Assembly (NCBI GenBank): GCA_947650285.1
Contig: CANTFL010001256.1
Location: forward strand, 462,281 to 526,280
DNA: 64,000 nt
Origin: Hyaloperonospora brassicae
Lineage: Eukaryota; Oomycota; Peronosporomycetes; Peronosporales; Peronosporaceae
Direction: 5' to 3'
Shown here: piece by piece, positions 1,801 through 41,614 of the stretch
Layout: each line of letters starts with the position of its first letter
Position numbering within the stretch: the first letter of the stretch is position 1
Notes under the pieces: generated by a model
What the model was told of the DNA's origin: nothing
Database searches by the model: none
The model's input: the letters and a program-made list of their open reading frames with translations, nothing else
Position numbers and translations under genes: made by a program

Positions 1801-4250
<2,450 letters not shown>

Positions 4251-4852
4251 GAAATGCGGAGAAGAGGGTTCGGCTTCCGACGAACGTCGTGAGCCAAGCG
4301 CGGTGCACGACGCGAAAGAAAACGAACGAGATGGACAGGCAGGTTGAACTGACGAAACAGGACGCATTATCGGATCTTGAGTATCCGCGTTGGCTGCGAT
4401 TTGCTGCTAGAGTGGCAGCACAGTTGCATCGCCGTATCGCGCGTCTTGATTCTTCTGGCCTGTCGAAGCGACAGCGCCTGAACGGTAGTACGTGGCGCAT
4501 TGTGAGGCATAGAAAACAATACATGTGCTACACACGGGTGGATTTATCCATCTCGCTGTCTGCTTTGCATCATCAGCTCTTCTTATGGCACATGTACGTA
4601 CCACGTCGATGTCTTCACATGGAACTATTCGATTACCATGACGCGCACAGGAATAGCAGCAGAGTTGTACCCACTGCCGATAGATGCAGAAGAACACACC
4701 GTACACGAGTCACGCGTGGCGCAGAGTGAAAAGTGAATTTTATGAGTTATTGCGCTTAAGTTACCTCCTACAGAGGGGACGCGAGTCTTCCGCTACAACG
4801 CGCGCGCGCGACAGAGAGGAAGGGAACCCGCTGACGGTTAAATACTATGCAT
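4251..4852. other. Intergenic region between convergent genes
   Basis: About 600 bp between the PHTF stop and the stop of the minus-strand gene. It presumably holds both 3' UTRs. I see no gene; a short alternating CG run lies near 4800-4810. Confidence 0.5.
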
Positions 4853-5797
4853 CTAGAATGGCGGGGTCGGGAACTCGCGCGACGTGCGCAGCAGCAGCGA
4901 CTCGAGCTTAGACGGCTTCGTCGGACAAATGGGTGTCCGATCGACCTCTGCGTCGGCGACGCCCATGACCTGCGGCACGTCAGCGAACGACACGCGCACG
5001 GCCGAAGAGCTCTTGTGTTCCACTGTTGGCTTCTGCAGCGTGTCGACCATTGCGTGGTCGACTTTCAAGCGCTGGTACTTGAGCGTAAAGCGCTTCATGT
5101 ACGAGTCCGCCGCGAGCAGGAACGGCAGCGCCTGTTCCGGTTTGTTCTCGTGCCAGAGCTGAGCGCCGCGGTCCCGGGCCACGGACATGGCGCGCCAGAG
5201 CACGGAGATGTCCCGACTGCTGGCGTCAAAGCCGCTCAGGAGCGGGAATTCACTGATGGCCGAGGGACTGCTGGGCGGCGACGTCACGGCCTCTTGCGCC
5301 TGAATGAGTGCCATGGTCCACATCTGCTCGGCCTCCATGTGCAGCGTCTCGTTGCGCTCGGTCTGCGCCAATAGCTGCGCCATGCGGTTGCGCGCGAGCT
5401 CGAGGAACCGCACGCACGTGTGGGGCTCGTAGACGCCCATGTCGCTCAAGATCGCCAGCTCTTTGGCAATGGCAAACAAGTTGCGCTCCATCACGACGCT
5501 GTTCATGTCCGAGGCCCACGCCTCGACGAGGATCATCTTGAGCTTGAGCTGCAGCGAGAGGCCCATGAGGCTGCGGCGCAAGAGCTCGTCGCTCTTCTTG
5601 TTGGCAGTAGACGACACGGACGACGACGTCGCTGGTGCGACTTGCGGCGTCTGCAATGCGCTGCGCACGGGACTCGACGACAGGTGCAGCGACGGCATGG
5701 CCAGGAGCTTGCTCGGGGTCACGGGCTCGACGCTGCGACGGCGTTTCTTGCTGGCGGTTGCGGTCGTCGCGTCAACACGGTGGAGCACTGTCATCAT
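4853..5797 (-). CDS. Unrecognised 314-aa protein, single exon
   Basis: Intact frame from ATG at 5797 (a second ATG follows directly) to TAG at 4853-4855. I do not recognise the family. Residues 1-70 are Ser/Thr/Pro-rich and look disordered, with a basic KKRRR cluster at 17-21 (possible nuclear signal) and several Ser/Thr-Pro sites. Residues about 70-165 and 200-260 are predicted-looking amphipathic helices (for example ELLRRSLMGLSLQLKLKMIL and ARDRGAQLWHENKPEQALPF). The second helical block (ALPFLLAADSYMKRF) is faintly reminiscent of MIT or TPR helical hairpins, but I cannot support that assignment. Codon use and GC content match the neighbouring host genes, so it is probably a real, perhaps lineage-restricted, gene. 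It converges on PHTF. Confidence 0.7.
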   Translation of the reverse strand: MMTVLHRVDATTATASKKRRRSVEPVTPSKLLAMPSLHLSSSPVRSALQTPQVAPATSSSVSSTANKKSDELLRRSLMGLSLQLKLKMILVEAWASDMNSVVMERNLFAIAKELAILSDMGVYEPHTCVRFLELARNRMAQLLAQTERNETLHMEAEQMWTMALIQAQEAVTSPPSSPSAISEFPLLSGFDASSRDISVLWRAMSVARDRGAQLWHENKPEQALPFLLAADSYMKRFTLKYQRLKVDHAMVDTLQKPTVEHKSSSAVRVSFADVPQVMGVADAEVDRTPICPTKPSKLESLLLRTSREFPTPPF

Positions 5798-24540: not shown

Positions 24541-24546
24541 CACACG

Positions 24547-25060
24547 CGCTATTAGACAAGTTTACCAGTTTTGAGGGGAAGCGCTATCGTTCGGACGATG
24601 CCTTGCAATGGATCAAACGGTTCGTCTACGAGATGAAAGGGACGTACCACCCGTAAGATGAGTGGTGCGAGCCATTTTCGCTGTACATGGACAAATCGGC
24701 CAAGCGTTGGTATTGACAACTTTCGAAGAAGACTCAGCGAAAGTGGAAGCTGCTCAGCGAAGCGTTTATGGACTATTACTGATCGCAGTTCGAGCAATCC
24801 GGTAGGTCGTGGTTTAACTCAGCGGAGTGTGGTGAGACCGAGCACGTGTAAGATTCCTACTGCGACTGAGCGGTCATGCACGGACGGCGCAGATTTAATA
24901 TGAGAAAGAAGGCGCGGATGCTGCCGACCACGTTGAGCACTTTCTAAAACTGCGGTGATAAAGACCTGATGGATTTGATCTATCCGCAGCGACTCGATGA
25001 TATTCAGCGCGTGTAGAAGATCATCAGTCATCGATTGCTCGGCGAGAAACGAAAGCAATA
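24547..25060 (+). pseudogene. gag (capsid-like) remnant of element 1
   Basis: Frame with FTSFEGKRYRSDDALQWIKR, then LYMDKSAKRWY-stop-QLSKKTQRKWKLL, resembles the retrotransposon gag domain pattern (A..W...L......W..L...F). Stops at about 24655, 24717 and 24780 break it. Confidence 0.6.
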
Positions 25061-26103
25061 ACGTGATTGAGTAAATACCGGACACAGGCTAAGTCGCCTT
25101 AAGATGAAGACACGGGAAAGCCGACGGAAAAAAAGGGATGATGGTCTTCGTCGGAGTGAACCGCGACGTGAGTCAAAATTCGACGATCGCCAAAGTGGCC
25201 GACCTGATCGTCGGAATGACCGTCGTCTGAATCACGGTGATGACCGACATGTTCCGTCGAGCTGTAACATCAATCGAGACTATGACTATCGTTGAAGTGT
25301 AACCCTTGCATCATCATCCATGGGAGATTAGCGAGCAGCGAGCAACAAGCGCAGAGGGAGCCGTGAAACCAACTTAAACGATTCGTCGACTAATTGAAGT
25401 GCACAAGAACACCTGATTGAATACGGTGCCGGCTCTGACTCGGACTCGAGGGAACCAGGAGCAGATGTGAGTCAAGTCCGAACTCAGTCGACCGTCAATG
25501 TCACACACGATCTCACGTACCACTGGTACCAAGATCGGACAAGATGTACGGCTGACAGGAAAGAATTCACCGACAAGAACGAACGGATTTGCCACGATCG
25601 CGTCGAATGTACAAACCGTGCGGTGCCATGGGACACGAAACTCATTTTTGCAGGCGACAAAGCGAGTTTTTATAAGCATATACATGACGTCGGTCGGTCC
25701 GAGTTGTTGGCAAGATTTGAGAAGCTGACCAAGTTCGTCAAGACATTGGTGGATAAATCGGCTGTGCCAGAAGACCTTTGCGGCAAATACATGTCGGCTC
25801 ATTTAAAATATCAAGCCCGTCGACTCTGACTGGGTATACTAATAACGGTCTGACACATTCAGTTGAAAAATCAGTAGAAGCGAACTACTTGTTTACCTTC
25901 GTTGAGTACACACAACGACCCGACGAGCGGGGAGGTGGCGAACAGGAGATAGCACAAGATTATTGAGACGATGGTGAAGGCCGATCGATCGCAAGGTTGA
26001 CAAAAACAGGCAGCTATGTTCTACGATAGTAGTGACGAAAGAATTAAAGCTGCTATTGGGATAACGACTGGAATGGTGGTCATCCAGGAAGTTCGATCTA
26101 CGA

Positions 26104-26470
26104 GCACGGATGCGAGCGCTAGTCATGGGTGTTGTCAATGACGAACGAGCAAAAATATTGCTGGATACAGAAGCTAACATTTCGGCTATTAGTGACCCAT
26201 TCGCTAAGAAGCTACGATTACGACACCTCACGATAAACGACAAACAAATTGATGTCCAAGGAACCGGAAAGTTGAAGGTCATCACCACATCACGGACAAC
26301 AGTCAAAATCACTATAGGATGGGAATTGGTTTATGAACTTAAAGTGTAGATTATGCCACATCGTGCGGAAAGTATCTCATCCTCGGTAGAAATTTCGGGA
26401 TACCAGTCGGCATCCGGCCAGACTTGTTCAACACGACGGCCACACTTCTGGACGAACTTGCCATACCTTA
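26104..26470 (+). pseudogene. Retropepsin-like protease remnant of element 1
   Basis: KILLDTEANISAISD (from about 26155) fits the aspartic protease active-site block, but the usual Gly after D-T/S is Glu, so the site is probably dead. The flap-like region and LILGRNF-type block follow after a stop. Confidence 0.65.
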
Positions 26471-27576
26471 ATTGAGGTCACAAGAAAAGCCGACGACACC
26501 ACATACGGAGATGAGATCGCTGGGGGCCCTTCTCGCTCATTGGATGTCGAGAGCCAGTTGTTTGAAGAGTTCCGGTTGCAACGAAAACAACCCAGCAAAT
26601 CAACTCACGAGCTGTGGACCCGTCGACTATTCACAATCGTGCCGACAGTGATGGACAGTAAGAAAAAGAACGGCAACGTGAGTACGGCTAACGAACATCT
26701 CTACGAGAAGTGCTTTGCGTCCAGCACACTTTCCAGTCTTGCTATGGCCACCACACGAAGTTCTACCACGAGACGAAAATTTTGTCAGTCTTAATGCGAC
26801 GGAACATCACGACTGGCAGGTGTTAGAATATAAAATTGTGATGGACGGACGTTTGTTCAAAAAATACAACAGCAGTATGCAAATTGGTTGAGTCAACAAT
26901 TGCCTGCTGTCGAGCGGCGAGCTTACGCACGAACTGCTAGAATATTACGACGGGATCATCACTTTTACAATGAAAGAACATATTTGTCTACAAGAGCAGT
27001 CCAGACACCACTGGAGTGCATCGAAGATGGATCAACACAGACCGAGATGGGTCGTGCACACGATACGAAGAACAACACGTTTCTGGATGACACAATGGCT
27101 GCCGGGCGAAGATCGGTCAACACTGCTTCCGTGAACAAATAGTGTTCAGCAACATGCACGGAGGGTGATGGCGATGATATCAACCAATGCTAGTCAGCTC
27201 AACTTGACGGGTCGTGCGCGGCAAATAGTCAAGTTTATACCAGAACTATTTCCGCCGATCGACTCGTCGAATTGCGGGACGGAGACGTTACGACGACAGG
27301 CGGGAACGGGTCACAGTTTGACGACTAAGATCAACTATGCCTGATTGCGTCAAAGTCAGTCGGTGCGACGAATACGTATGACCCGTCGACGCCTCCTCTA
27401 ATCGATACATCGGATTTTAAGCATATCGCGAGCTTCATCAGCCTGGTCAATTATGCTTAAGAACTCGCGTTCTTACCGAATCTCACCTAGAAGCACCAAT
27501 CAAAGTGGATTGTACCGAGGGCAATGTGGTATGCACTGACTACACAGACACATAACGAGCGCAGCTGTTTAGTGCA

Positions 27577-28390
27577 TTGCAGAGACACGCAGGAATATTG
27601 ATCTCTAGTGGTAACGATCTACCACCTCTAGCATATGGAGTAGTGTGTGATATCGACGTCAAAGGTCATGATCCTATTAAGCAACGGTCCAGACGGGTAA
27701 TACTACACCATCTATCGCAGCTATACGAGCTGTTGAAAGGGCTCTTGCAGGCAAAACCGGTTTTGTTTTCCCGGAGTCCTTGGGCGTCGCCCAAATTGGT
27801 CGTCCCAAAGAAGAATTGCTTTGACATCCGGTTATGCATTGATTATAAACTTTTCGACGCCTTTAAGGCCAGCATAGAATACGCAATGCCCTTGGTCGAC
27901 AATTTGTTCACCGAGATCGAAAGCTGCCAGCGGCTTTGCTCACTCAATGCAAACAGTAAATTTTGGGCGGTATTTATGACTGAACGAGCGCGTCACATGT
28001 CAGCGTTTGTATGAATTTTGAGGAATTTCGGGTGGTTGCGCATGCCGCTTGAACTTTAAGAATTATTTAATGATCTACCAACAAATGGCCGACAACGCGT
28101 TGTGGGGGTATGTTCAGCCGAAAGGTGGGTGGCAAGACCTTGCTTACAACGTAAACGTTGCCGGAAATGAAACTGTGAGTAAGCGCGCAACTAAAACCAC
28201 AGATCGGAATGAGCTAGGCGCTAGAGGATCGGCGTTGACAAAGCTGAGAGCTAACTACCGAGCACTCGACGAGTCTGATGCGTTGCAACATCTGATCAGT
28301 GATTCGGCAATAAACATGTTTGTCACGGGCAAACCCGATGAATCGACGGTTGTCCCAGTGTTCCATCGTCCATCGTTTGTGGACTAAATT
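27577..28390 (+). pseudogene. Reverse transcriptase remnant of element 1
   Basis: SRSPWASPKLVVPKK and IRLCIDYKLFDAF are the N-terminal RT blocks of gypsy elements (SPWASP..LV.KK, R.C.DYR.LN). A fragment resembling the NAP.IYQ.M block follows at about 28065-28090 after a frame change. I could not find an intact YxDD catalytic box. Confidence 0.75.
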
Positions 28391-28744
28391 TGCTTTCGAG
28401 ACAAGTGCGTTGGTTTCTATTTAAAGACGCTTAACAGGTTGTTGGTGCGCTTCACTGAGTGTCGAATTAGCATCATCTGCATAAAGACCATCTTTTTGCA
28501 GCCTGAAGTAGACTTCCTTTGACACAAAGTGACAGCACAAGGCATTGCAGCCGACCCGACCAAACTGGTGAATCTTGCCGAGTAGCCGTTCCCAGCGTCA
28601 AATAAGGGTATGCGATCGATTCTCAGAGCGATTTACTATTACAGCCGGTCCATCCAGAACATCGCTGTGTATGTAGCATACTGCATAAATTAAGGAAGAC
28701 GATTTCTTCTCGAGGCAAACCTGGTCGGGGTACGCGCTCCCTTC

Positions 28745-28985
28745 GCTATGCTACAACACATAATCGTCACAGCCCCAAATCTGCGTCATTTTGCCTCCGC
28801 AGTCGACGTTCATATGATGGTTTTAGCCAATGATTGGGCGTTAAGCAGTACGTTGATGCAAATTCCAGACGGAATGTTACACCCGGTTCGGTTTTGTGGT
28901 CGAGAGTTGAGGAGAGCGAGGTATATTACCACCTTGAGGAGTGTGAAGTGCTAGTGCTGCTTCAGTTGCTGAAGATAAAGCATAC
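28745..28985 (+). pseudogene. RNase H remnant of element 1
   Basis: The segment ANDWALSSTLMQIPDGMLHP then VRFCGREL fits the start of the gypsy RNase H domain (D.S..A.G..L.Q..DG...PV.F.SR.L). The frame is broken soon after. Confidence 0.65.
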
Positions 28986-30289
28986 TCTTCTCGCTAGATA
29001 AGTCATCCACGTACATTCGATTCTCTACGATGTAATGACACTTCACGTTTAAGCCGTTATACGGAAGGGCTGTCATCTTCGCTGTGTTACTCTCCCCGTA
29101 TAATCTGAAGATCAAGAGGGCGAGCAAACGTGATGTGGACTTCGTTTAATTGTTGCAAGCGTCCGTCACGCCGATTATCGGCCTCGACGAGTCGTTACAA
29201 CATATTGTTTACCTGCCAAAGACTAAAAACACGGCGAGTGTCCGACTGGATCCAAAGGTTCTCTATGCGCTTGTGCCTTCGACATTTGTTGGCTTTGTAC
29301 TGTCCCGTCGAAGGCTAAGCGAGGACCAAGAAGCACGGAGATTTTTGATATTTGCTCGTGAATACTGTAAAAATTGCCGGAATAAATTATTGTGATCGCT
29401 TCGAGTGCTTACCTGTCGGCAACAACTGTCAACCTTTCGTAGTACACAGAAATTAATAACGGAGCACCAGCAGCAATAGAACATAAATTGCCTGACTTGA
29501 TTATTGTGGGTGACTACAGGCTCGCAATCCAGCAATCCATGAGGGTAATCGCATGCAAGAAATACTCGTTGCAGATGATGTTAGCGCTTCACAACAAATT
29601 AGTCGCCCAATTTAATTCTGTCCGATATTTGCATGTTATACGGTGTTACAACGCGACCGCAGATACGCTATCCACCGAAGAGTTGGAAGTTAAATCAAGT
29701 CAAGTGGTGGAGGCAGAACGACTGAGCAATCTGCAGAAGCTTAACAGCATACAAGATAGACTACTCGTTGAGTTTTCTCCGTCGAAAGAAGATAAGGTCC
29801 ACTAACGATAACTACTACCAGGCGGAGTAGAGCTCGACGATCCCGATATGCTGATCAACTAACCCGAGAACAACTGGATACACCTAGTCGCGCGAATAGT
29901 TACCTGGCCAAAAACGACCAAGTCCAAGAGTTGTTCAACAAAATAGACATGCATGGTGAATTCAAGAAGTCCAATCGACAATCCGAGACTCGACGAATAC
30001 CAAAGCACCCGACAGAAGCACCTACTGGCCTCGATATCCGCTGAGTATTGAAGACATCGATCCGCTAGTCGTACAAGCCGAACGCATAGAAAGGATATTG
30101 AAAGCTATAGATGAGGAAGAGAAGTGGGCAACGCTTAAAACTTTCCTTAGAGGTGAGTTCGACAAAATGGCCAATGAACAAGCTTACAACGCGAGAAAAT
30201 CGTGGATCGTTTCGTACTAAGCAAAGACGGTACACTTTACTACCTAGAACGACGCCACGAGCCGAGGCAGCTGCTGGACGAAGTTCGGA

Positions 30290-31150
30290 ACTTACGATTG
30301 GTAGTTATAACTACTTTAATCGATGATATTCTGCTAAATTAATACGACTCTGTGGAAAGCGGACACCAAGGGATCGTAAGGACGTTCCATCGAGTGAAGT
30401 CCGACTATCTCTAAACCTAGCTCTATGCCGTCGTGAAAAAACACACACTAGCATGTGAAGATTGAAGTACCAGCAAGAGCACGCCTCACTTGAAAGGTCA
30501 CTCGCCGGGTGAAGCCGTATCCGACCGGCCTTTTCAAGTGGTCTCAAAGAACTATGTTATTCCATTACCAATAACTCGACGATAAAATACGGCGCTGAAA
30601 CTGTTCTAAGGTCACGTTACAGGATACGTAATTTCAAAGGCCACGGGAGCAACAGAAGGCACTAGACGTGGCAAAAGCATTCGAAGAGAACATCTTCATC
30701 GTTTTGGAGCTCCCAGCCTCATTCGACATAATAAAGCCCAACGACTCATGAGAAAAGTGTTCCAAATTTTTGCCGAGATGATCTGGTCTAAATCACGAGC
30801 TACGTTGGGTTACAGACCCCAAGCAAACAGACAACGAGAACGCAGCGTGAAGACGATGATACAGACAGTGCGCGTGTATGTCGAGGATTTAATTCAAGTA
30901 GACTGGGACGATATCGCCGAGCAATTAGTGCATGCGATCAATAACTCTAGAGACCTTACGAGAAAAGAGACTCTTTTTTACATAGTTCATGCTTGGGGTG
31001 CGCACTCTACACTGAAAGCCATGACCGAACCGACTCGGCAAACATCAGTCGCAGCAAGCAAAGTGATAAGCTCAGCAGACCCGGTCATGTGGGGACGCGA
31101 GTCTAATGAACAACGAGAAATATCGCTCAGGCTTGTGAGATAATACCAAG
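30290..31150 (+). pseudogene. Integrase remnant of element 1
   Basis: A zinc-finger-like segment (ESGHQGIVRTFHRVKSDY then CEDC with a stop), a core fragment with GYRPQANRQRERSVKTMIQT (the H/YRPQ.DGQ.E..N box), and AINNSRD...FYIVHAWGAH downstream identify the integrase. The DDE triad is not intact. Confidence 0.7.
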
Positions 31151-31239
31151 TAAGTGCAAAAGCTCGGCGAGCAAAAGATCATAATGAGGGATTAATCTTG
31201 GCTGAACGACAAACCATCTCACGAACGAGACGATTCGAT

Positions 31240-31590
31240 CATACTCAAAACGCAAGTCAACAAGATGCAGGAAAAGATGCGCCATTTAAGACAAGGTTTG
31301 ACGAAGGGGATCAAGCATGGAGATTTATGGAGAAAGTGAAGCCTAACCTGAAGAAGAAGCTGTTTCATCGATGGCATGGGCCGTCTGCATACAGCGACTA
31401 GTGGACGACTTTCTTTCGAGTTAAACTTACCCGACAGAAGCAGATATAAATTCTATCCTGTCGTACATGTGCCACTCTTGAAGTATGTCAGAGATCATGG
31501 CTTACGACCTACAAGGAGGTCGGCAACTGGAATCGCTGAGACCGACCGTTTCGATTTTGACGAAGAACTCTTACCAGAGGATAGTTGAGA
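31240..31590 (+). pseudogene. Integrase C-terminal (GPF/Y-like) remnant of element 1
   Basis: TRFDEGDQAWRFMEKVKPNL then KLFHRWHGP and a frame change to LPDRSRYKFYPVVHVPLLK. This is the pattern of the gypsy integrase C-terminal module (V.L....K...K...R..GPF.I..........L..P.......HVS.LK). Confidence 0.6.
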
Positions 31591-31700
31591 GCCAGGCAAA
31601 GCGAGCGGGAGATACGAAGTAGAAGCAATCGTGGATGACGACTTACCACTCTCTTCGAGCATCAGCAGGACTCAGCGACGGTTTCAGGTGAAGTTAAAAA

Positions 31701-33627: not shown

Positions 33628-33632
33628 CTTGA
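33628..33632 (+). repeat. Target-site duplication, left copy (CTTGA)
   Basis: Five bases directly before the 5' LTR, repeated at 41610-41614 directly after the 3' LTR. Five-base duplication is usual for Ty3/gypsy integrases. Confidence 0.85.
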
Positions 33633-34023
33633 TGTAACGGGGCAGCCCGTTACATGGAATTGTCACTTTAAGAAAAGTGACAATAACGAATATGAAGTTG
33701 AATATTCTTTAAACAATATCACGGAAGCGATGATATTGAAGGGTCGACCAAAGAGTCTGTTCATTGGTTGATATCTTGATGATATCAACCCACCAATCGC
33801 CGCAAGACGCGCGCAATGAGTGGTGACGAGACGTCACCATACACTCAGTTACATTAGCATAATTAAGTTAAGTCAAACAAAGAGAAAGTAGTTTATAGAC
33901 TTAATTATATTAATATAACAGTTCTGCTTTTACCTTACCTACGCTTCCTCGCTTGCCTTGTGTACGTCTGTCGGGGCACCGATACCCTTGCGTTAAGTTC
34001 ACGCAAGGGTGTGCCCCGTTACA
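33633..34023 (+). repeat. 5' LTR of element 2 (391 bp)
   Basis: Starts TGTAACGGGGCA and ends TGCCCCGTTACA, a perfect 12-bp terminal inversion with TG...CA ends. The first 22 bp also fold on themselves (TGTAACGGG / CCCGTTACA). More hairpins follow: GTCACTTT/AAAGTGAC, AATATCA/TGATATT, TTGATATC/GATATCAA, GGTGACG/CGTCACC and ACCCTTGCGT/ACGCAAGGGT (the last with a one-base offset). Confidence 0.93.
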
Positions 34024-34025
34024 CC

Positions 34026-34033
34026 TGGTAGCA
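34026..34033 (+). other. Primer-binding site of element 2
   Basis: TGGTAGCA begins two bases after the 5' LTR and is complementary to the 3' end of initiator tRNA-Met (ending UGCUACCA). The match stops after eight bases. Confidence 0.6.
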
Positions 34034-34059
34034 CTTTGTAGTCCTTCCAAGGACCACAA

Positions 34060-34083
34060 CATCCAACATGAGCATGTTGGATG
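34060..34083 (+). promoter_or_regulatory. Perfect hairpin enclosing the gag start codon
   Basis: CATCCAACATG and CATGTTGGATG are exact inverse complements separated by two bases. The gag ATG (34068-34070) lies in the left arm, so in RNA the start codon would be base-paired. Confidence 0.7.
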
Positions 34084-35222
34084 ATGAAGAGACCTTTCAC
34101 GCCACGCGTGAAGGGTTTACCCATTTGAGTGACATCGAATGGGGTGCGGTAGAACGAATGAGTTCTACCGTAGGCGAGTTCGCCATTAGCTCCATGTTGG
34201 AGTCTCTAGACAGACACCAACAACATGCCGCTATAGCCAAGTTCATCCAAGATGAACTTGTCGCCGAAAGGGATAAAGTAGCCTTGCTTTACCAGCAAGG
34301 CTCTCAACAGGCCGAGCAGTTGAGAGAACTCGGTGCTCAACAGACAGAGCTGTTGAGACAGCAGCAATTCCATGCTTCTGTTGGCGGGACGGCACATGCG
34401 CGTCGTCCCGAGGTCATGAAGGTTGACATCTCCAAGAACAGTGGAGTGCCGGAGGACTCCCTGTTACTATGGTTTGTCGAACTCGACAGAGCCTTAAGGG
34501 CTCGTCGCGTCGAAGATGAGCAAATGAAACTCACATTTGCTCAGACCCACTTGGCAGGGCGTGCCAAAACTTGGTCCCTGGGACTCGAGAGTAGCGACCC
34601 ACATGTGTTAAGGTCGCTAGATGACTTCAAGTCCCGGCTCAGACAAACGTTTGAGCCGCCACGAGCTGAGTTCAGGGCTCGTTCTGAGCTCCTGAAACTC
34701 AAGCAGGGTAAGCGTGATGTTCACGCTTACGCACAACATATACGACTCCTCGCGAGTAGTATAACTGCTAACCCAGTTCATGAACACACGTTGATTACGG
34801 TGTTCATGCAAGGGCTCGCAGAAGGGCCCGTCAGGATCCACCTGTTCCGCCTTGAGCTGAATACTCTTGAAGAAGTGATATCAGCCGCGGAACAGGAAGA
34901 CTTTAGCATGAGACAGGCTCATGCTAGCTAAAACTCTTACCGTCCACCGAGACGACAAGAGATCGGAGATCCAGAACCAATGGACCTCTGCTATGTTGAG
35001 AGCGAGAGACCTCTCTCTACAAACAACACGCGATTGAAGAGGTGCAATCGCTGTCAAAAGTCAGGGCACTACGCATACGAGTGTAGTGCTCCACGCCCAG
35101 TACCAATCAGTACTGAGCGAAATGGACGACCATTTTCCAGAAAGGGCAATGGGCGTGGGTCCAGCGCTGTTGCGAAGCCGCAACAGCGAGACGGACCATC
35201 AAAAAATGGTCGGGGTCAGTAG
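34068..35222 (+). pseudogene. gag of element 2 with one internal stop
   Basis: ATG at 34068. About 287 codons to a TAA at 34929-34931, after which the same frame continues to TAG at 35220-35222. The first part has a coiled region with Gln/Glu-rich repeats (AEQLRELGAQQTELLRQQQ) and a capsid-type domain (LLLWFVELDRALRARRVEDE, LKLKQGKRDVHAYAQHIRLL). After the stop comes a CCHC zinc knuckle (CNRCQKSGHYAYEC) for RNA binding and a basic Gly/Arg-rich tail. The stop therefore separates capsid from nucleocapsid. The following pol frame is shifted by -1 and overlaps upstream, so a programmed shift or a separate pol start are both possible in an intact copy. Confidence 0.85.
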
Positions 35223-36130
35223 GGGCGGAGCGCCCTACTGATCCAGCAACCTTAAGAGAATTTGCAAATCTCTTGACGAAAGTTGATCCAGATACACAAT
35301 CATTGTGTGCCTCTGCACCTGGTGATGACGTTTCGCTCATCACCTTGAAGTTGGAAGCGACAAATGATTTGTCACTTCGTGCCCTAGTAGACTGTGGGGC
35401 GTCGAACAACTTTGTTCGACGCCAGTCACTAGAGGGTCGTAGGCTCAAGTTCGTTGAGCGCGACATTCCCCTCACAAGGATGACGGTGCGCCTTGCAACA
35501 GGCGCATCGATTACCGTTAAGAAACGTGTAGTCGGAATCCACTACACGTTGGAGGGCGAACAGTACGATGATGACTTCATCGTACTAGATCTGGATGACA
35601 AATTTGATGTCATCCTGGGATTACCTTGGCTCAGAAAGTACGAGCCAAGGGTGATCTGGCAGCATCGATCCGTGAAGATGCCTGCCACTTGTTCATCAGA
35701 TGGCCATCTGATGAACATCTTGGAGCGTCCACAAGCGTGTGGATGTTCTGCGAGTGAGTGCGATGGACTCACTTGCGATTCGGTCGTTAGCACGACTGCA
35801 CAAGATCACAGTGTAGTTGATCACTACACTGTGGAGCAAGCTCCCGGCGGTTGTACAGAAGTACAGGCTGCGCCGAAGGTCCACCACTCGAATAAGTCGA
35901 GTGGACCGGGACATGGATGCATGCCTAGCGGGCAGCATCTTAGACAAAAGAAACCTGTTGCCCCCAAAGGGCAACATGGAAATCCTAGGTCGACTGGAGA
36001 GTCGACCGTAGAGGATCGGTCCCTGACTGTGGTTGCACAGACACAGTCAGAAGACGTCGAGGGAATAAGTCCCCACGTACTTGATGAAGGAATTCCAAAA
36101 GAGTCACTCGCTGAAGGATTAGGCCTTTAG
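35223..36130 (+). pseudogene. Protease region of element 2 pol
   Basis: The frame is open from before 35216 to TAG at 36128. LRALVDCGASNNFV (active-site Asp at about 35390) is the retropepsin loop, with Cys where Ser or Thr is usual. DDKFDVILGLPWLRKYEPRV is the conserved ILG..WL block closing the domain. The rest, to 36130, is a Cys/His/Ser-rich spacer. A further TAG at 36227-36229 and one at 36482-36484 interrupt the link to RT. Confidence 0.8.
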
Positions 36131-36493
36131 CAACCTGTGGAAAGAAGTTCCCAGGAAGTAACCGAGACGTTGAACGTCTTGGTTGATGACGGATCAAGCG
36201 TAGGCGCTTATACGCTTGATCTGATTTAGCCTCCGAAGTTAACTTCGGAGATAACTCAGTTGCCAACGCTAGAACCGAAACGGTTCTTGCGTGATCTGCG
36301 CACTGGCAAAGTCAAGCAGATCTGCATACTCGTCACAGAGGATGAGTATGTGGCCGATATTCGGTCGGCAACAGTATTTGCTGAGAACGAACGGGTTCTC
36401 AGCAGCTCATCGATGGACGAAAGTGTCCTCGATGAGAAGACTCGGATTGAGCGATACGCGTCCCTATCCTGGGAGTCACTTTAGGCAAATCCT

Positions 36494-37240
36494 TTGTACA
36501 AGGATTTGATCGAATTCAGAAATGTGTTCCCTGAATCCGTACCGTGCGAGTTGCCTAAGGACAAAGGCACTCGACACGAGATCGAGCTCAGACCGGGCTC
36601 GAAGTATTGTGTCATGAAGCAGTGGTCACTGCCCCGTGAACAAGTACTAGCGATCGACAAGTTCTTTGCCGATCGCTTAGCAGCGGGCCATGTGAGGGAA
36701 TCAACATCCCCTCACAGCTCTCCGACCTTCTGTGTGTGAAAGGCCACAGGAAGATGGCGGATAGTGCACGCATTCAACAAATTGAATGCTGCAACGGTAC
36801 CGGCTCAGACGCCGATACCGAGGAAGGACGTAACCATAGATGGTATGTAAAAGATGACCATCTTTTTTTCCATGGATCTGATGGATGGGTTCTATCAGAT
36901 CCTCATGCGTGAACGAACATCCCGTTCACGGCAGTGAGTACCCCCAGCGGGATGCTGTGGGAGTGGCTAGTTATACCACAGGGGCTGAGCAATGCCCCTG
37001 CAACATTCAACAGATGTGTCACAAATCTGTTGAGACCGGTGCGAGACTTCGCACCGAGTTACTTCGACGATGTGTTCGTCCATAGCCGGGCTACGGACGG
37101 AAAGACGGACGTTGAAGTTCACAGAACTCACATTCGTCAGGTTCTTCAACTTATGCGCAAGCATAAGTTGTACGCCAACCTCAAGAAGTGTACATACGCG
37201 GCTAGCGAATATACCACTTCTTGGGTGCATCGTGGGTAAA
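36494..37240 (+). pseudogene. Reverse transcriptase of element 2
   Basis: Visible blocks: HEIELRPGSKYCVMKQWSLP, FFADRLAAGHVRESTSPHSS, then stops at 36737 (TGA) and 36848 (TAA), FFSMDLMDGFYQI, a one-base deletion near 36913, WEWLVIPQGLSNAPATFNRC, and the catalytic box as YFDDVFVHS (about 37060-37087), with both Asp residues kept. A one-base insertion near 37208 shifts the thumb and connection region. The order and spacing are those of Ty3/gypsy RT. Confidence 0.88.
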
Positions 37241-37980
37241 CACGGCGTACGCCCTGATCCCGAAAAGATCAAGGCGATCACCGACTGGCCTGTTCCAGTC
37301 GATGTCAAGGGACTAAGGAAGTTCCTTGGTCCAGAGGCGTACTTGCACAAGTACTCGCGCAACTACGCCGAGATGACTGTTCATCTTTCTTGCTTGCTCA
37401 AGAAAAATGTCAAGTGGTCATAAAACGCTGAGTTCCAGCGTTCCTTTGAGGGTATCAAGCAAAGCTTGATGCAATCGCCGATCTTGGCGATTGAAGATCA
37501 GGACAGACCTATTCATGCGGTCTGTGACGCCAGTGATTTTGCAATCGGCTGCGCGTTAATCCAGTTTGATGCAGATGGCGCGGAGCGCGTCATCTGATAT
37601 CAGTCGCGTCAGCTGCAAGCATCTGAGCGTAATTACCCAGTGCATGACAAGGAACTTTTTGCCATGAAGTACGCACTGGCTAAGTTTCGCGTCTATCTCT
37701 TGGGAGATAGACCGATTGTTGTCTATACGGACCATGCGTAATTACGCACGGCCGTAAACAGCCCACACCTCTCGCAAAGGATGGCGAGGTGGCTGTTTTT
37801 CTTCGCGGAGTATGACTTCTCCGTGGAGTATAAACCAGGACGACTCAATGTCGTCGCTGATGCGCTTTCGCGCCTGCCCGATTTCGAGCCGGACGCACAA
37901 ATCAACAGTGAGGATAAGCCCACTGTTGCGACACTGTCAGTCAGTATCCCGTCGTCAAGTTTACTTGACGACGCACGAAA
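37241..37980 (+). pseudogene. RT connection and RNase H of element 2
   Basis: Connection: GVRPDPEKIKAITDWPVPVD. RNase H: PIHAVCDASDFAIGCALIQF (first Asp of the active site), YPVHDKELFAMKYALAKFRV (Glu) and VYTDHA followed by TAA (third acidic site), then VADALSRLPDFE closing the domain. In-frame stops at 37421, 37595 and 37739. The stops at 37595 and 37739 lie inside perfect palindromes. Confidence 0.85.
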
Positions 37981-38011
37981 GGCATACGCGGAAGATAAGG
38001 ATCTTCTGTGA

Positions 38012-38930
38012 TTGATGGATCATCTGGTAAATCCATCCAGAAAATCCATGAGGGATTTACCAGGTTTGTACCGGTCCTCATCGGATCGGTATAGTACACG
38101 CAACAGATTGCTGTACTATACAGCTGTTGCCGACGACACGCCTCGTGTCGTCGTACCCGCTCATCATGATTTGCGTTTACGCATCATGTATGAGTGTCAC
38201 GATGCCCCAACAGGCGGGCATCGTGGTAGAGAAAAGACTTACCTCACGGTAAGTCGTGACTTTTACTAGCCACGCCAGTATCAGTTTGTCCGCAAGTACA
38301 TACGTGCTTGCGAGGTTTGTCAACGGGTGAAGCCTAGTCCTTCATCCCGTGCGCCATTGCAGTCTCTGCCTGTTCCGACAGAGTGATGGAAGTCCGTTTC
38401 AATGGACTTCGTCTTCGGTTTTCCCGAAGACGCTAACAAGAATAATGGTATTCTTGTGTTCGTTGACCGATTCAGCAAGATGGTGTATCTTCCTGCAGTC
38501 CCTGAGTCGATCAAGGCTCAAGGATGTGCTCGTGTCTTTCTAGACACGGTCTTCCGACTACATGGGTGCCCTGTAAAATCGTATCCGACCGTGACCCTCG
38601 GTTCACGGCGGCATTTTGGCAAACCGTGTTCCGCACATTGAAAACACGAAAGATGTCTACTTCTGACCATCCCGAAACAGATGGTCAGACGGAACGTGCG
38701 AACCGTGTCCTCTAAGAGATCATTTGAGGATATGTCTACTCATTTCCGAGTTGGAGCGAATTCCTACCCATGGTGGAATTCGCCATCAATAATTCGGTGC
38801 ATGCTCCAACCCAGCACACCCCGTTTTACGTGGATGGCGTAAGCCATCCACGTGTGCCCACCCTTCTAGAGTGTGACTCTCGGATAAGGGGGAGGGAATC
38901 GCTCGAGCAAAAACCGTCTTGGCTCTTGCT
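38012..38930 (+). pseudogene. Integrase of element 2
   Basis: H2C2 zinc finger: HHDLRLRIMYECHDAPTGGH ... CEVC. Catalytic core: SMDFVFGFPEDANK (first Asp), [12 protein letters not shown] (second Asp, in a frame shifted by a one-base loss near 38575) and [17 protein letters not shown] (Glu). All three catalytic residues can be read. Stops at 38267, 38384, 38713 and 38725 break it. FAINNSVHA and TPFYVDG, typical of the end of the gypsy core, follow. Confidence 0.87.
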
Positions 38931-38939
38931 CATCACGTG

Positions 38940-39796
38940 TCGACGCTAACGTCGTCACGTATGATGCCGATGTCGATCAAATCGACATCGATGAAGAAGA
39001 TCACCTCAACAATAGCGATGACGCTATTATTGACTCGGATGATGATGACGATGCTGGTATATTCAGCATCGTCAACGATTATGCCAGCGAGGAAGAAGAC
39101 AACCTCGCTGAAGAAGAGAACAATCTCTGAGCAGTGCGCACGAAGCGCACTGAAAGACAAAACAAAGAGTCAGCAGAGAACTTCCTGCTGACTCGAGAAG
39201 CGGTAATCCGTTTCTTTCAGGACGCCATCGCAAATGCGGTGGACCGTCAGAAACGGAACGTAGACAAGAATGGAAGAGCAAATGTTCTTTCATTTAAAGT
39301 TAACGACCTAGTACTACTGTCTACGGTAAACTTACCTGGACACGCAGTCACTAGTTTCGGCAGTAGCAAACTACTGCCGAAGTACATTGGGTCATTTCGA
39401 GTGTTGCATCGCAAGGGCAATACATACACACTCGAATTGCCACGTAAGATGCGCACGCATCCTACGTTTTACGTGGGGAGGCTCAGGCCGTACTGTCAGT
39501 ATGAGCCGTCTTCTTCCGATGAAGATAGCCCTCACGTTCAAGAACATCCATCAACGCCTTTCGTTCGCGCTCCAGACGATCCGTCTGGTCGCGCAGATAT
39601 GATACCTCGGAACTCAACCGAGATATGTCCCCGCGAGCTGTCTCCAGCTCACCGAATAGAGAGCGGACATCCCGCTCGACCTGAAGCTGCGCCGTGGCAT
39701 AATCGGCGCGATCCCTCACCCGATCAACTCGTGATTCTTGCGGTTCTTCCGCATGGTATCAGTCAAAGCGTAGCGCCGTTCGCGCTCGTGCTATAA
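38940..39796 (+). pseudogene. Integrase C-terminal region of element 2: acidic linker and GPF/Y-like module
   Basis: A linker with Asp/Glu/Ile runs (DVDQIDIDEEDHLNNSDDAI) ends at a TGA (39128). In the same frame from 39134 follow KRTERQNKESAENF, FKVNDLVLLSTVNLPGH, KLLPKYIGSFRVLHRKG and TYTLELPRKMRTHPTFYVGR. This is the SH3-like C-terminal module found before chromodomains. The Ser/Pro/Asp-rich tail to 39796 overlaps antisense coding sequence. Confidence 0.8.
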
Positions 39797-40189
39797 GTCA
39801 TCGCGCAATTCATCGATTGCGCGATCCATCTCGTAAGGGTCGAGATGGTGAAACGAATCATTTGGAGGAGATCTTTCCTCCTCCACCACATCCTTTGGTG
39901 GATGCTCACGGTGGTCAACGCTTTCTAGTGGAGCGTATCTTGAATAACCGTGACGATTTAGGATCAAGGACGAGCTACCTCGTCCAGTGGCGGGGGTATC
40001 TACCCTCTTGGAAAAGCTGGGAGCCCCGCTCTCAGCTGTTGATGGATGTTGAAGGTCTCGTCCGCCAGTATGACGAGACCCATCCGGTGAGTCCTCGGGC
40101 CCGTCGGTAAACACGCTCCCTAGACGCTTGTAGACGGATTGCAAGTTTGCAATCGCGTCACGCATCTCCTCCAAGATGTGTGGCCTTCT
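39483..40189 (-). pseudogene. Continuation of the antisense gene: helical/coiled-coil tail
   Basis: Directly after the TAA at 40190 the same minus frame runs open to 39791 (HILEEMRDAIANLQSVYKRL..., then ...YEMDRAIDELRDDL). After a TAG and a frame change, 39719-39483 gives a clear heptad-like coil: RDVRSLFGELETARGDISRL, then YLRDQTDRLERERKALMDVL. The three pieces together suggest one antisense protein of roughly 550 residues with a coiled-coil C terminus, broken here by two stops and a frameshift. It overlaps the sense chromodomain and the integrase tail. Confidence 0.5.
39817..40110 (+). pseudogene. Chromodomain at the end of element 2 pol
   Basis: RFLVERILNNRDDLGS then SYLVQWRGYLPSWKSWEPRS has the chromodomain pattern (V..I......G...YLV.W.G....SWEP). 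It is in a different frame from the preceding module, so a frameshift or spacer break lies between. In chromoviruses this domain steers integration to particular chromatin. Confidence 0.8.
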
Positions 40190-41086
40190 TTAGGGCGAAG
40201 TTAGGGAATACACGTCCCTATGTGCACGTTGCGAGTTGTCAACACAACTCGCACAAGGGTCTCCCCATGTGAGGCAAGGAATGCCTGCCTCACTTAACAA
40301 ACAGTGCAACCGGTATCTAGCACCGGTTGGCGTTCGCTTTTCGAACCTGAGGCGTGTCGCCTCAAGCTTCTTGAGCCACCCTTCTCGTCCAAAATTCTTT
40401 ACGTTTTGGACGAACGCGTTCCACGCAGCCAAAATCGAGGCTTTGTCACGCTTTTGGTTGCTGTTGTACCATCGATGTCTAAGGAAGACATCGAGATAAA
40501 AGTCTTCCTCAGAGCGAAAGTTGCTCGCGCTAGGATTCAAGTCGTGAAGCTCAGTCGCATCGAAAAAGGGTATGTGATGGTGTTGGCTTGTCTCGTGAGA
40601 CAAACCATTGATGAGCCGTTCAGGCAAACGCCACGGCTTCAGCTCATCACGCTCCACGGTGGTACCTTTGTTGGTACCACGTTTTTCAGTATGACGATGG
40701 GTTGCACCATCGTCAAGTCGCTCGTGCGAAGGAGCACGAGCTGATTGCGGTGATGAGCAAACATACTCATCACCAGATTCGTCATCACTGCCGAACAGAC
40801 TGTGTTGCAACTCACGAGTCCGTTCGTTAGGCAGTGGGCTTGGCGAACACTGAGGCGTCGCCGGTGAGCGAGACGCCTCTGCAGCATTGCCCGAGTCAGA
40901 CACGTCTGACTCGCCAGAGTAGATGACCTCAATGTCGGGGTCATCATGCGCACGTGGTGCTGTACCGCGTGCACCTGCAGCACCTCTTGCTGCAGGCGAA
41001 GAACGAGCAGCAGACGACGAATTGTCTGCCGCAGAAGCTGGCACAGGCACAGACTCTGTGTGCCTTGAGTCACCCCGCATAGACAT
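40190..41086 (-). CDS. Antisense gene inside element 2, between pol and the 3' LTR
   Basis: ATG at 41086 to TAA at 40190-40192, 298 aa, open throughout. The first 150 residues are Ser/Ala/Asp/Glu/Pro-rich and look disordered, with an acidic EVIYSGESDVSDSG motif. Residues about 170-298 look globular: FFDATELHDLNPSASNFRSE, EEDFYLDVFLRHRWYNSNQK, ILAAWNAFVQNVKNFGREGW, then HCLLSEAGIPCLTWGDPCAS with three Cys near the end. I do not recognise the family. The overlapping sense frames are not protein-like. The frame is read toward the element's interior, starting 133 bp from the 3' LTR, which might supply an antisense promoter. Beyond the TAA the same frame continues (next entry), so the original product was probably longer. 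Confidence 0.7.
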   Translation of the reverse strand: MSMRGDSRHTESVPVPASAADNSSSAARSSPAARGAAGARGTAPRAHDDPDIEVIYSGESDVSDSGNAAEASRSPATPQCSPSPLPNERTRELQHSLFGSDDESGDEYVCSSPQSARAPSHERLDDGATHRHTEKRGTNKGTTVERDELKPWRLPERLINGLSHETSQHHHIPFFDATELHDLNPSASNFRSEEDFYLDVFLRHRWYNSNQKRDKASILAAWNAFVQNVKNFGREGWLKKLEATRLRFEKRTPTGARYRLHCLLSEAGIPCLTWGDPCASCVDNSQRAHRDVYSLTSP

Positions 41087-41206
41087 GTTAACTATGCGAG
41101 GTCGAGCGGAAAGTGAATGGGACGGACCCAACAAGTGCTCCCTGTCCCAATGGTGACCAACGGGTGGCCGCCATCATTTTCGATAGTCACACGGTGACTT
41201 TCAGTT

Positions 41207-41215
41207 AAGGGGGGG
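41207..41215 (+). other. Polypurine tract of element 2
   Basis: AAGGGGGGG ends three bases before the 3' LTR, the expected place for plus-strand priming. Confidence 0.75.
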
Positions 41216-41218
41216 TGA

Positions 41219-41609
41219 TGTAACGGAGTAGCCCGTTACATGGAATTGTCACTTAAAGAAAAGTGACAGTAAAGAACATGAAGTTGAATATTCTTTAAAC
41301 AATATCACGGAAGCGATGATATTGAAGGGTCGACCAAAGAGTCTGTTCATTGGTTGATATCTTGATGATATCAACCCACCAATCGCCGCAAGACGCGCGC
41401 AATGAGTGGTGACGAGACGTCACCTTACACTCAGTTACATTAGCATAATTAAGTTAAGTCAAACAAAGAGACAGTAGTTTAAAGACTTAATTATATTAAT
41501 ACAGCAGTTCTGCTTTTACCTTACCTACGCTTCCTCGCTTGCCTTGTGTACGTCTGTCGGGGCACCGATACCCTTGCGTTAAATTTACGCAAGGGTGTGC
41601 CCCGTTACA
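41219..41609 (+). repeat. 3' LTR of element 2 (391 bp)
   Basis: Same length as the 5' LTR with 13 substitutions and no indel by my count. The first 12 bp differ from the left copy at two positions (TGTAACGGAGTA), which spoils the terminal inversion here. Confidence 0.93.
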
Positions 41610-41614
41610 CTTGA
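41610..41614 (+). repeat. Target-site duplication, right copy (CTTGA)
   Basis: Matches 33628-33632. Confidence 0.85.

Follow-up and report, generated by a model that had tools for sequence, protein, structure and literature searches.

Does the dense run of short inverted repeats in one oomycete retrotransposon reflect a real property of its sequence, and what could maintain it? The locus lies in a window of 64,000 nt, the whole stretch of DNA that was analysed (Hyaloperonospora brassicae, GCA_947650285.1, contig CANTFL010001256.1, 462,281–526,280, forward strand). The element at 33633–41609 is a Ty3/Gypsy LTR retrotransposon with a chromodomain, flanked by a 5-bp target duplication (Table 1). 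Gag, protease (PR) and RT were identified by Pfam in pieces of the window element, and the order PR, RT, RNase H, integrase was confirmed in a related copy, L007. The chromodomain match (PF00385, within 39703–40107, E 3.3e-10) was checked in the window element alone, and a zinc-knuckle match directly 3' of gag (34932–35219) was weak and below cut-off. Stops break the RT–RNase H–integrase frame in the window copy; the frame is open in 14 of 30 copies (4.2-kb pieces; L005 is the window element itself).

Table 1 Features of the retrotransposon (window coordinates).
Feature	Position	Strand	Basis or remark
Target-site duplication CTTGA, left	33628..33632	.	read directly; same as 41610-41614
5' LTR, 391 bp, TGTAACGGGGC...GCCCCGTTACA	33633..34023	+	
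gag ORF, hairpin-tiled	34068..34928	+	Retrotrans_gag PF03732, Ty3_capsid PF19259
Protease region, hairpin-tiled	35117..36127	+	RVP_2 PF08284
RT, RNase H and integrase region	36500..38680	+	RVT_1 in 36913-37236; positions of RNase H and integrase taken from L007
pol C-terminus	39131..40107	+	SH3_Tf2-1 (PF24626), chromodomain (PF00385)
Antisense gene, shortened in window copy (327 aa open)	40193..41173	-	
Purine-rich tract preceding 3' LTR	41206..41218	+	read from sequence; function assumed
3' LTR, 391 bp	41219..41609	+	13 differences vs 5' LTR
Target-site duplication CTTGA, right	41610..41614	.	same as 33628-33632
Hairpin tiling overall: 88 perfect inverted repeats, arms at least 8 bp, spacer at most 20	33633..41609	.	

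We counted perfect inverted repeats with loops of at most 20 nt. For arms of at least 7, 8, 9, 10, 11 and 12 bp, the element contained 128, 88, 55, 34, 11 and 2 repeats, respectively, whereas element 1 (24541–31700) contained 9, 2, 0, 0, 0 and 0, and a host control (1801–5797) 9, 2, 1, 0, 0 and 0; both thus lack arms of at least 10 bp, in keeping with the claim that neither carries the signal. Means over 20 dinucleotide shuffles of the element were 8.9, 2, 0.65 and 0.15 for arms of at least 7, 8, 9 and 10 bp. The counts included all 20 repeats listed in the original prediction, whose arms were perfect over 10 bp or more. Some extended further than listed, among them the longest perfect local stem (35690–35717, 14-bp arms), which lies inside the protease region; a 21-nt local stem in the LTR is imperfect (86%). 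The open frame of L007 exhibited 78, 61, 40 and 24 repeats with arms of at least 7, 8, 9 and 10 bp, against means of 6.1, 1.8, 0.7 and 0.2 in 30 synonymous-codon shuffles. The excess therefore withstood dinucleotide and synonymous shuffling as well as comparison with element 1 and host sequence.

The signal runs, as had been claimed, through every part of the element: arms of at least 7 bp occur at 17.6 per kb in each LTR (7 of them within 33630–34027 at the 5' end), 15.1 in gag, 16.7 in pro-pol, 11.2 in the pol/antisense overlap and 20.1 in the antisense-only part, and at background level outside the LTRs (left flank 1.9, right flank 2.9). Under greedy tiling with arms of at least 5 bp, coverage was 53% for the window copy (19% in one shuffled sequence) and 62% for L007 (18% in one shuffled sequence), so that the phrase "built almost entirely" of inverted repeats was an overstatement. 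Chance, composition or an assembly artefact is refuted as the source of the hairpins, and we give it a negligible probability: with 35 arms of at least 10 bp on slightly wider limits against the dinucleotide-shuffle mean of 0.15, the 31 other family loci carry 64–85 arms of at least 7 bp apiece, and other elements are normal.

Hairpin tiling belongs to a Ty3/Gypsy clade, not to a single element; the predicted hairpins are real and extend beyond the window's element. Excess over synonymous shuffles (arms of at least 5 bp) was detected at all eight sampled loci, from four families of one Ty3 clade (z 3.9–17); none of the RT-element loci outside it showed such an excess (14 loci, z −2.5 to 2.1). 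Arm length is family-specific, being short in the L038 family, and stem positions are nearly all different between families: none of 73 L007 stems was kept whole in L035, one of 34 L035 stems in L007, and two of 22 L037 stems in L007. With few or no homologous stems between families, the hypothesis of a conserved structure was dropped. Stems of L035 and L037 showed an outer-G bias, and those of L038 a Y-R closing-pair bias. A scan of viral contigs for relatives of P0001 returned one stretch that fitted a pattern, and none encoded a relative.

We evaluated folding on both strands. L007 gave −107.0 kcal/mol per 240 nt on the sense strand (against −71.0) and −104.7 kcal/mol on the antisense strand (against −69.1). 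Similarly, the MFED of the window element was 39.3% sense and 41.6% antisense, with sense values of at least 21.6% in all 22 fragments of 350 nt; it ranged over 39–51% in the element's family and 9–16% in L035, L037 and L038. These results show that the coding sequence of the clade is tuned for folding of either strand into short, local, perfect Watson-Crick hairpins, and the LTRs and antisense gene of the window element are tuned likewise. The predicted tie between codon choice and folding is supported by both repeat counts and fold energies.

Very high MFED, together with many coding-region stem-loops at poorly conserved positions as in the genome-scale ordered RNA structure (GORS) of positive-strand RNA viruses (available text of PMC7642675), would fit structure selected on the plus strand only, for protection, compaction or packaging of genomic RNA, with the antisense side as a by-product. 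Sense-only selection should accept G.U, but G.U equalled A.C in the window element's family (16 and 14 in L007, arms of at least 7 bp), both were close to chance in L035, L037 and L038, and shared broken pairs among copies comprised 27 A.C and 13 G.U. Furthermore, a loop motif for a binding protein or capsid was sought in the loops and none was seen. The wobble test thus left plus-strand RNA selection unsupported. Because G.U is tolerated no better than A.C and the folding gain is equal for the two strands, the signal is not plus-strand-specific; a need for pairing on both strands would be expected to leave G.U without preference. Selection on genomic RNA structure had been suggested as a possible cause; the data favour its structural part, without the strand specificity. 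We consider plus-strand structure unlikely, though the likeliest of the alternatives.

Equal strands, the lack of G.U preference and tiling that stops at the LTRs would also suit hairpins in single-stranded or chromosomal DNA, through protection of cDNA inside the particle, a role in integration, or effects on chromatin. Arms of 5–11 bp with loops of several bases make poor cruciforms in duplex DNA, and the analyses here do not separate cDNA from two-stranded RNA; we rank DNA hairpins below plus-strand structure in probability.

Variation was analysed across 31 copies of the window element's family, the sole family with enough copies. Shared variants at third positions stood at 4.3% in stems and 18.4% in loops, and in a mask-shift test the stem depletion and loop excess were reached in 1 and 0 of 1319 shifts, respectively. 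Third-position singletons were depleted in stems too (7 of 1319 shifts), and the shared-to-singleton contrast at third positions alone was not significant (p = 0.19), which means that stems may simply mutate less often, as an alternative to selection. Compensatory double changes were few: two pair columns had a shared one and three a single-copy one, and wider settings with 32 copies gave 7 of 954 pair columns. A copying drive, in which RT repeatedly folds the nascent strand back and perfects near-palindromes while protein selection merely filters, could yield Watson-Crick stems in which G.U does not outnumber A.C, stem sites that differ from family to family, and clade-restricted, family-specific arm lengths as an RT property. 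Such correction should, however, transfer a mutation to the opposite arm with roughly the frequency at which it reverts one; with 39 shared stem sites seen and approximately 65 expected at the outside rate (simple arithmetic), tens of doubles would be due. Nor was there consistent left/right arm asymmetry, the mark of template-switch direction (L037 versus L007 was lopsided, 13 to 5), at a divergence near saturation. Because shared variants avoid stems and compensatory doubles are few, selection on structure fits better than template switching or palindrome-making copying. Both causes had been proposed originally; the first gained from these data and the second lost, and we judge a copying drive improbable, behind DNA hairpins.

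An antisense ORF of 465–540 aa is present in all four hairpin families; in the window element's family its overlap with the end of pol is about 620 nt, and its length is 539–540 aa in three of the five other copies. In the two non-hairpin Ty3 families checked, the interval from pol to the 3' LTR left no space for such an ORF and showed no similarity to the antisense proteins, the link between hairpins and antisense gene being based on four versus two families in one genome. Homologues of the antisense proteins occur in Hyaloperonospora, Peronospora and Phytophthora (compared as proteins only). The antisense proteins of the window element and L038 may not be homologous to those of L035 and L037, and a Pfam search of seven antisense-type proteins gave nothing above cut-off.

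Because elements of this clade also have an opposite-strand gene, transcripts of both polarities would be present together; they could pair into long dsRNA, a substrate for Dicer, or become targets of siRNAs. In P. infestans, sRNAs map along two Gypsy elements in both orientations (available text of PMC3522703), and antisense ORF transcripts of plant elements have been proposed as a source of dsRNA and siRNAs (available text of PMC7264820). From sequence, we tentatively infer escape from sense-antisense silencing by local folding of both strands as the leading mechanism, at somewhat below an even chance. Selection would act to keep either RNA free of open single-stranded stretches: if both transcripts quickly folded into local stems no longer than about 14 bp, they could neither anneal nor be reached by siRNAs, and short stems would leave Dicer without a long duplex. 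Slightly more doubtful is a two-strand folding code, in which synonymous choice would close both transcripts into hairpins of sub-Dicer size that block annealing or targeting, each family having its own hairpin size.

Silencing escape is consistent with conserved stems and free loops, and with predicted open 8-mers at 34–47% of the shuffle level on both strands in L007 and the short-hairpin L038 family. Against it, hairpins fill gag and RT as well, beyond the antisense gene; family-specific arm lengths and the outer-G and Y-R closing-pair biases are not predicted; the imperfect LTR stem exceeds the proposed limit; and predicted accessibility was hardly altered relative to shuffles in L037, and sense accessibility of a control, L004, was also slightly under all six shuffles (0.0264 vs a lowest of 0.0286). 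If true, silencing escape would represent a retrotransposon counter-defence that acts in cis and spans the whole sequence, solving a two-strand coding problem. Hairpin and non-hairpin Ty3 families share one genome in many highly similar copies, which makes the question of silencing evasion by structure testable.

No description of such an element turned up in the literature searched, in line with the original prediction. The window element resembles Ty3/Gypsy chromodomain elements (Metaviridae) in LTRs, 5-bp target duplication, gag, PR–RT–RNase H–IN order and chromodomain, and differs from them by hairpin tiling and a large pol-overlapping antisense gene. Plant Gypsy elements (Grande gene23, RIRE2, Retand) also have an antisense ORF, placed after pol and ahead of the 3' LTR, according to the available text of PMC7264820; here the element is an oomycete chromodomain element whose ORF overlaps pol, and its hairpin tiling may be a further difference. 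Retand is described as a non-chromovirus RT lineage (available text of PMC11963269); by domain content, the chromodomain of the window element hints that it may lie outside such a lineage. Viroids share compact folding, held protective against RISC and proposed as silencing escape (available text of PMC3185485); the window element differs in being protein-coding, 8 kb long and made of many small hairpins. With GORS it shares many coding stem-loops, unconserved positions and MFED far above shuffles, and differs in being a retrotransposon whose stems are perfectly Watson-Crick, vary in length by family and are equal for the two strands. MFED in L035, L037 and L038 falls within the viral range, and folding in the window element's family is stronger than the highest viral value in the available text of PMC7642675 (23.4%), a rough comparison given that shuffling and windowing differ. 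The window element works like GORS and is not a member of it, being an LTR retrotransposon and not a positive-strand RNA virus.

All 20 inverted repeats listed in the original prediction were found in the sequence with perfect arms, and its claim that such repeats crowd element 2, a Ty3/Gypsy retrotransposon, and spare element 1 and the host genes was borne out: with spacers of up to 20 nt, arms of at least 10 bp numbered 34 in element 2 and were absent from both element 1 and the host control. Arms of at least 7, 8, 9 and 10 bp (128, 88, 55 and 35 over window positions 33630-41613) far exceeded the means of 20 dinucleotide shuffles (8.9, 2, 0.65 and 0.15), and those of L007, an open copy of the element 2 family, exceeded 30 synonymous-codon shuffles (78, 61, 40 and 24 vs 6.1, 1.8, 0.7 and 0.2). 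Pairing is local, with loops of 2-10 in most arms of at least 8 bp, and the hairpin density ends at the LTRs. The window covers positions 462281-526280 of its contig (assembly of 100.6 Mb in 898 contigs).

Coordinates of the features (window positions unless a DNA piece is named)
Feature	Coordinates	Strand	Type
Element 2	33633-41609		Ty3/Gypsy retrotransposon
Element 1	24541-31700		control
Host genes	1801-5797		control
Outer ends of element 2	33633-33643, 41599-41609		11-bp inverted repeat
Array right of element 2	43782-64000		satellite, unit ~415 bp
Antisense proteins of L035 and L037 families	L059:265-1659, L061:200-1714	(-)	ORF
Repeats flanking L040	L070:1659-2205, L040:3814-4361		repeat
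Element 2-like LTR, left of L035 element	L058:748-1143	reverse	LTR

The LTRs of element 2 (391 bp, target duplication CTTGA) differ at 13 positions. Its window pieces match gag, protease, RT, SH3 and chromodomain, plus a weakly matching zinc knuckle, and its pol frame is interrupted; the intact relative L007 has RNase H and integrase domains. A DNA search with the RT region scored 40 matches (92-100% identity) from 2177 candidates, so copy numbers are lower bounds. Thirty loci were retrieved for their likeness to this region (L005-L034, of which L005 is the window itself); in 14 of them a pro-pol frame of 1339-1361 aa is open, as judged inside a 4.2-kb piece. For residues 1-500 of the L007 frame, the best protein homologue among the matches listed is from Peronospora effusa (79%); further homologues of the frame start occur in Globisporangium and Phytophthora, at least 61 proteins altogether, which makes a peronosporalean oomycete the probable host. 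The outer ends of the element, TGTAACGGGGC/GCCCCGTTACA, exceed the usual TG...CA. The satellite array starts ~2.2 kb to the right; its self-alignments are ~98-99% alike, and inverted repeats are almost absent from it.

The hairpins are a property of the clade. Each of the family's 31 other loci (L006-L034, L039, L042) carries 64-85 arms of at least 7 bp in 4.2-4.5 kb (72 in the window's piece), and hairpins also occur in the same-clade families L035, L037 (with L043) and L038 (with L046), whose RT-IN identity to L007 is 61-62%. Arms of at least 5 bp exceeded synonymous shuffles in 8/8 clade loci (z 3.9-17, lowest in L043) and in none of 14 other RT-element loci (z -2.5 to 2.1), the 8 representing four families and some of the 14 being mutually related. 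At arms of at least 7 bp, the L038-family loci showed no excess over synonymous shuffles (z 1.8, 1.4), and two of the 14 were slightly raised (L074, 3 vs 0.7, z 3.2; L036, 4 vs 1.5, z 2.0). No report of hairpin-tiled retrotransposons was found in the literature searched, most subscription journals falling outside it. In the L035 family, 18 genome places (L035, L055-L057 and others) match its RT region at 100% (rounded) over ~1201 nt, near-identity pointing to very recent activity; the element 2-like LTR beside L035 is 90% identical.

Hairpin size is family-specific. Observed/expected arm counts (loops 3-12) at 8, 9 and at least 10 bp were 19/0.8, 16/0.2 and 22/0.1 in L007, 15/0.7, 10/0.1 and 1/0.2 in L035, and 6/0.7, 9/0.2 and 0/0.1 in L037. 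L038 favours shorter arms (4 bp, 170/113; 5 bp, 104/30; 6 bp, 16/8; 7 bp, 4/1.6; no excess beyond), with 25 six-bp arms vs 2 expected once loops of 1-2 are included and a hairpin span peaking at 13 nt. Base preferences comprise an outer G in L035 and L037 stems, a third-base C in L035 and a pyrimidine-purine loop-closing pair in L038.

Stems transferred by codon alignment were almost never kept whole between families, and a conserved structure was rejected: L007 stems were kept in 0/73, 0/75 and 0/63 cases in L035, L037 and L038, and L007 kept 1/34 of L035's and 2/22 of L037's; the closer pair L035/L037 shared 4/39 and 6/24, by direction. Most stems thus arose or moved separately in each family. 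Columns paired in L007 were also paired at 0.367 in L035 and 0.370 in L038 (shifted controls 0.24-0.29), which we read as shared ancestry of bases. The codon register with least synonymous freedom is the rarest in the L007 frame (14/78 arms of at least 7 bp), indicating that stems were built within protein constraint; L035, L037 and L038 show little or none of this bias. Within arms, amino-acid identity between L007 and its relatives is 0.44-0.51, as against 0.52-0.53 elsewhere; the stems were therefore accompanied by some amino-acid replacements.

We compared variants among 31 copies (L039 excluded) in the pro-pol frame (4017 nt). Sites with variants shared by at least two copies were scarce in stems and frequent in loops, both at all positions (stem 39/1496, outside 91/2086, loop 38/435) and at third codon positions (22/515, 56/688, 25/136); when the hairpin mask was slid along the frame, 1/1319 shifts gave as low a third-position stem value and 0/1319 as high a loop value. 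The 14 open copies alone gave 11/440 vs 50/899 at third positions (p=0.012). Singleton-only sites were flat overall (141/1496, 201/2086, 49/435), and the shared:singleton contrast was significant for all positions (p=0.003). In our reading, stems are under purifying selection, and after insertion all parts of a copy decay. Less frequent mutation in stems is a possible cause of the depletion, since third-position singletons are also fewer in stems (7/1319 mask shifts) and the contrast at third positions alone is not significant (p=0.19). Copying drive, in which one arm is corrected by the other, may have made the stems; however, it predicts double changes about as frequent as reversions, and alternative Watson-Crick pairs were shared in only 2 pair columns and single-copy in 3, a scarcity indicating that such drive does not keep the stems now. 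In diverged, mostly decayed relatives, stems break at about the rate expected from divergence; our reading is that dead copies carry stems without maintenance.

Each hairpin family has an antisense ORF between pol and the 3' LTR. Among the 3' ends of five element 2 copies it spans 539-540 aa in three, overlapping the pol end by ~620 nt, and 462 and 426 aa in the others; it measures 327 aa in the window copy, 465 in L035, 505 in L037 and 472 in L038. The L035 and L037 proteins share 43% identity over 181 aligned positions, and for those of element 2 and L038 the matches to others have borderline scores (E 6e-4 across 47 residues at best); a single ancestry for all of them is thus only a possibility. 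Compared as proteins, element 2-type homologues (8, Hyaloperonospora and Peronospora) and L035-type homologues (30, in Hyaloperonospora, Peronospora and at least eight Phytophthora species) mark both genes as old. By our reading, L035- and L037-family proteins contain an SR-protein-like arginine-serine-rich stretch; at the C-terminus of the element 2 antisense protein, Pfam matches of coiled-coil type are weak and fall short of the cut-off. The antisense proteins matched nothing in seven non-hairpin pieces. In the non-hairpin controls L036 (LTR end 130-240 nt past pol) and L040 (repeat taken as LTR starting ~26 nt past pol), the short gap leaves no room for the gene. An antisense open stretch in L036 extends from the pol end across the LTR and on into flanking DNA (97 aa up to where the piece stops, 175 aa in L071, which overlaps that piece), with no similarity to hairpin-family antisense proteins. 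The repeats flanking L040 consist of two parts, whose order is switched on the left side.

Pairing is similar on both strands. One-mismatch stems held G.U and A.C to an equal extent: in L007 (arms of at least 7 bp) there were 16 G.U and 14 A.C (shuffles 5.1, 4.7); counts were near chance in L035 (5, 5 vs 3.5, 4.4; at arms of at least 8 bp, 3, 4 vs 1.4 each), L037 (6, 5 vs 4.5, 4.2) and L038 (arms of at least 5 bp; 20, 17 vs 31.4, 22.5). The folding-energy gain was the same on both strands in L007 and similar in L035, L037 and L038. MFED in 350-nt fragments reached 39.3% (sense) and 41.6% (antisense) in the window element, 51.2% in L007, 16.3% in L035, 9.2% in L037 and 15.5% in L038; controls gave 0.4% (element 1), -0.6% and -1.8% (host), 1.3% (L036), 2.1% (L040) and 0.1% (L004). 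PMC7642675 gives, with other shuffling and windowing than here, ~15% for SARS-CoV-2, 7-9% for HCV and 23.4% for the top coronavirus.

The longest perfect local arm is 14 bp, beside one imperfect 21-nt stem in the LTR. Predicted open 8-mers were fewer than in shuffles on both strands of L007 (0.0125 vs 0.0267; 0.0135 vs 0.0335) and L038 (0.0109 vs 0.0233; 0.0196 vs 0.0571), with a smaller drop in L035 and hardly any in L037; L036 and L004 about equalled shuffles (L004 sense slightly low). Together, genes and hairpins on both strands, short stems and fewer open 8-mers suggest that the hairpins would avoid sense-antisense duplexes and siRNA access, although we infer every step from hairpins to silencing. 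In P. infestans, as described in PMC3522703, sRNAs lie along two abundant Gypsy elements in both orientations, and 21-nt sRNAs are affected by silencing PiDcl1.
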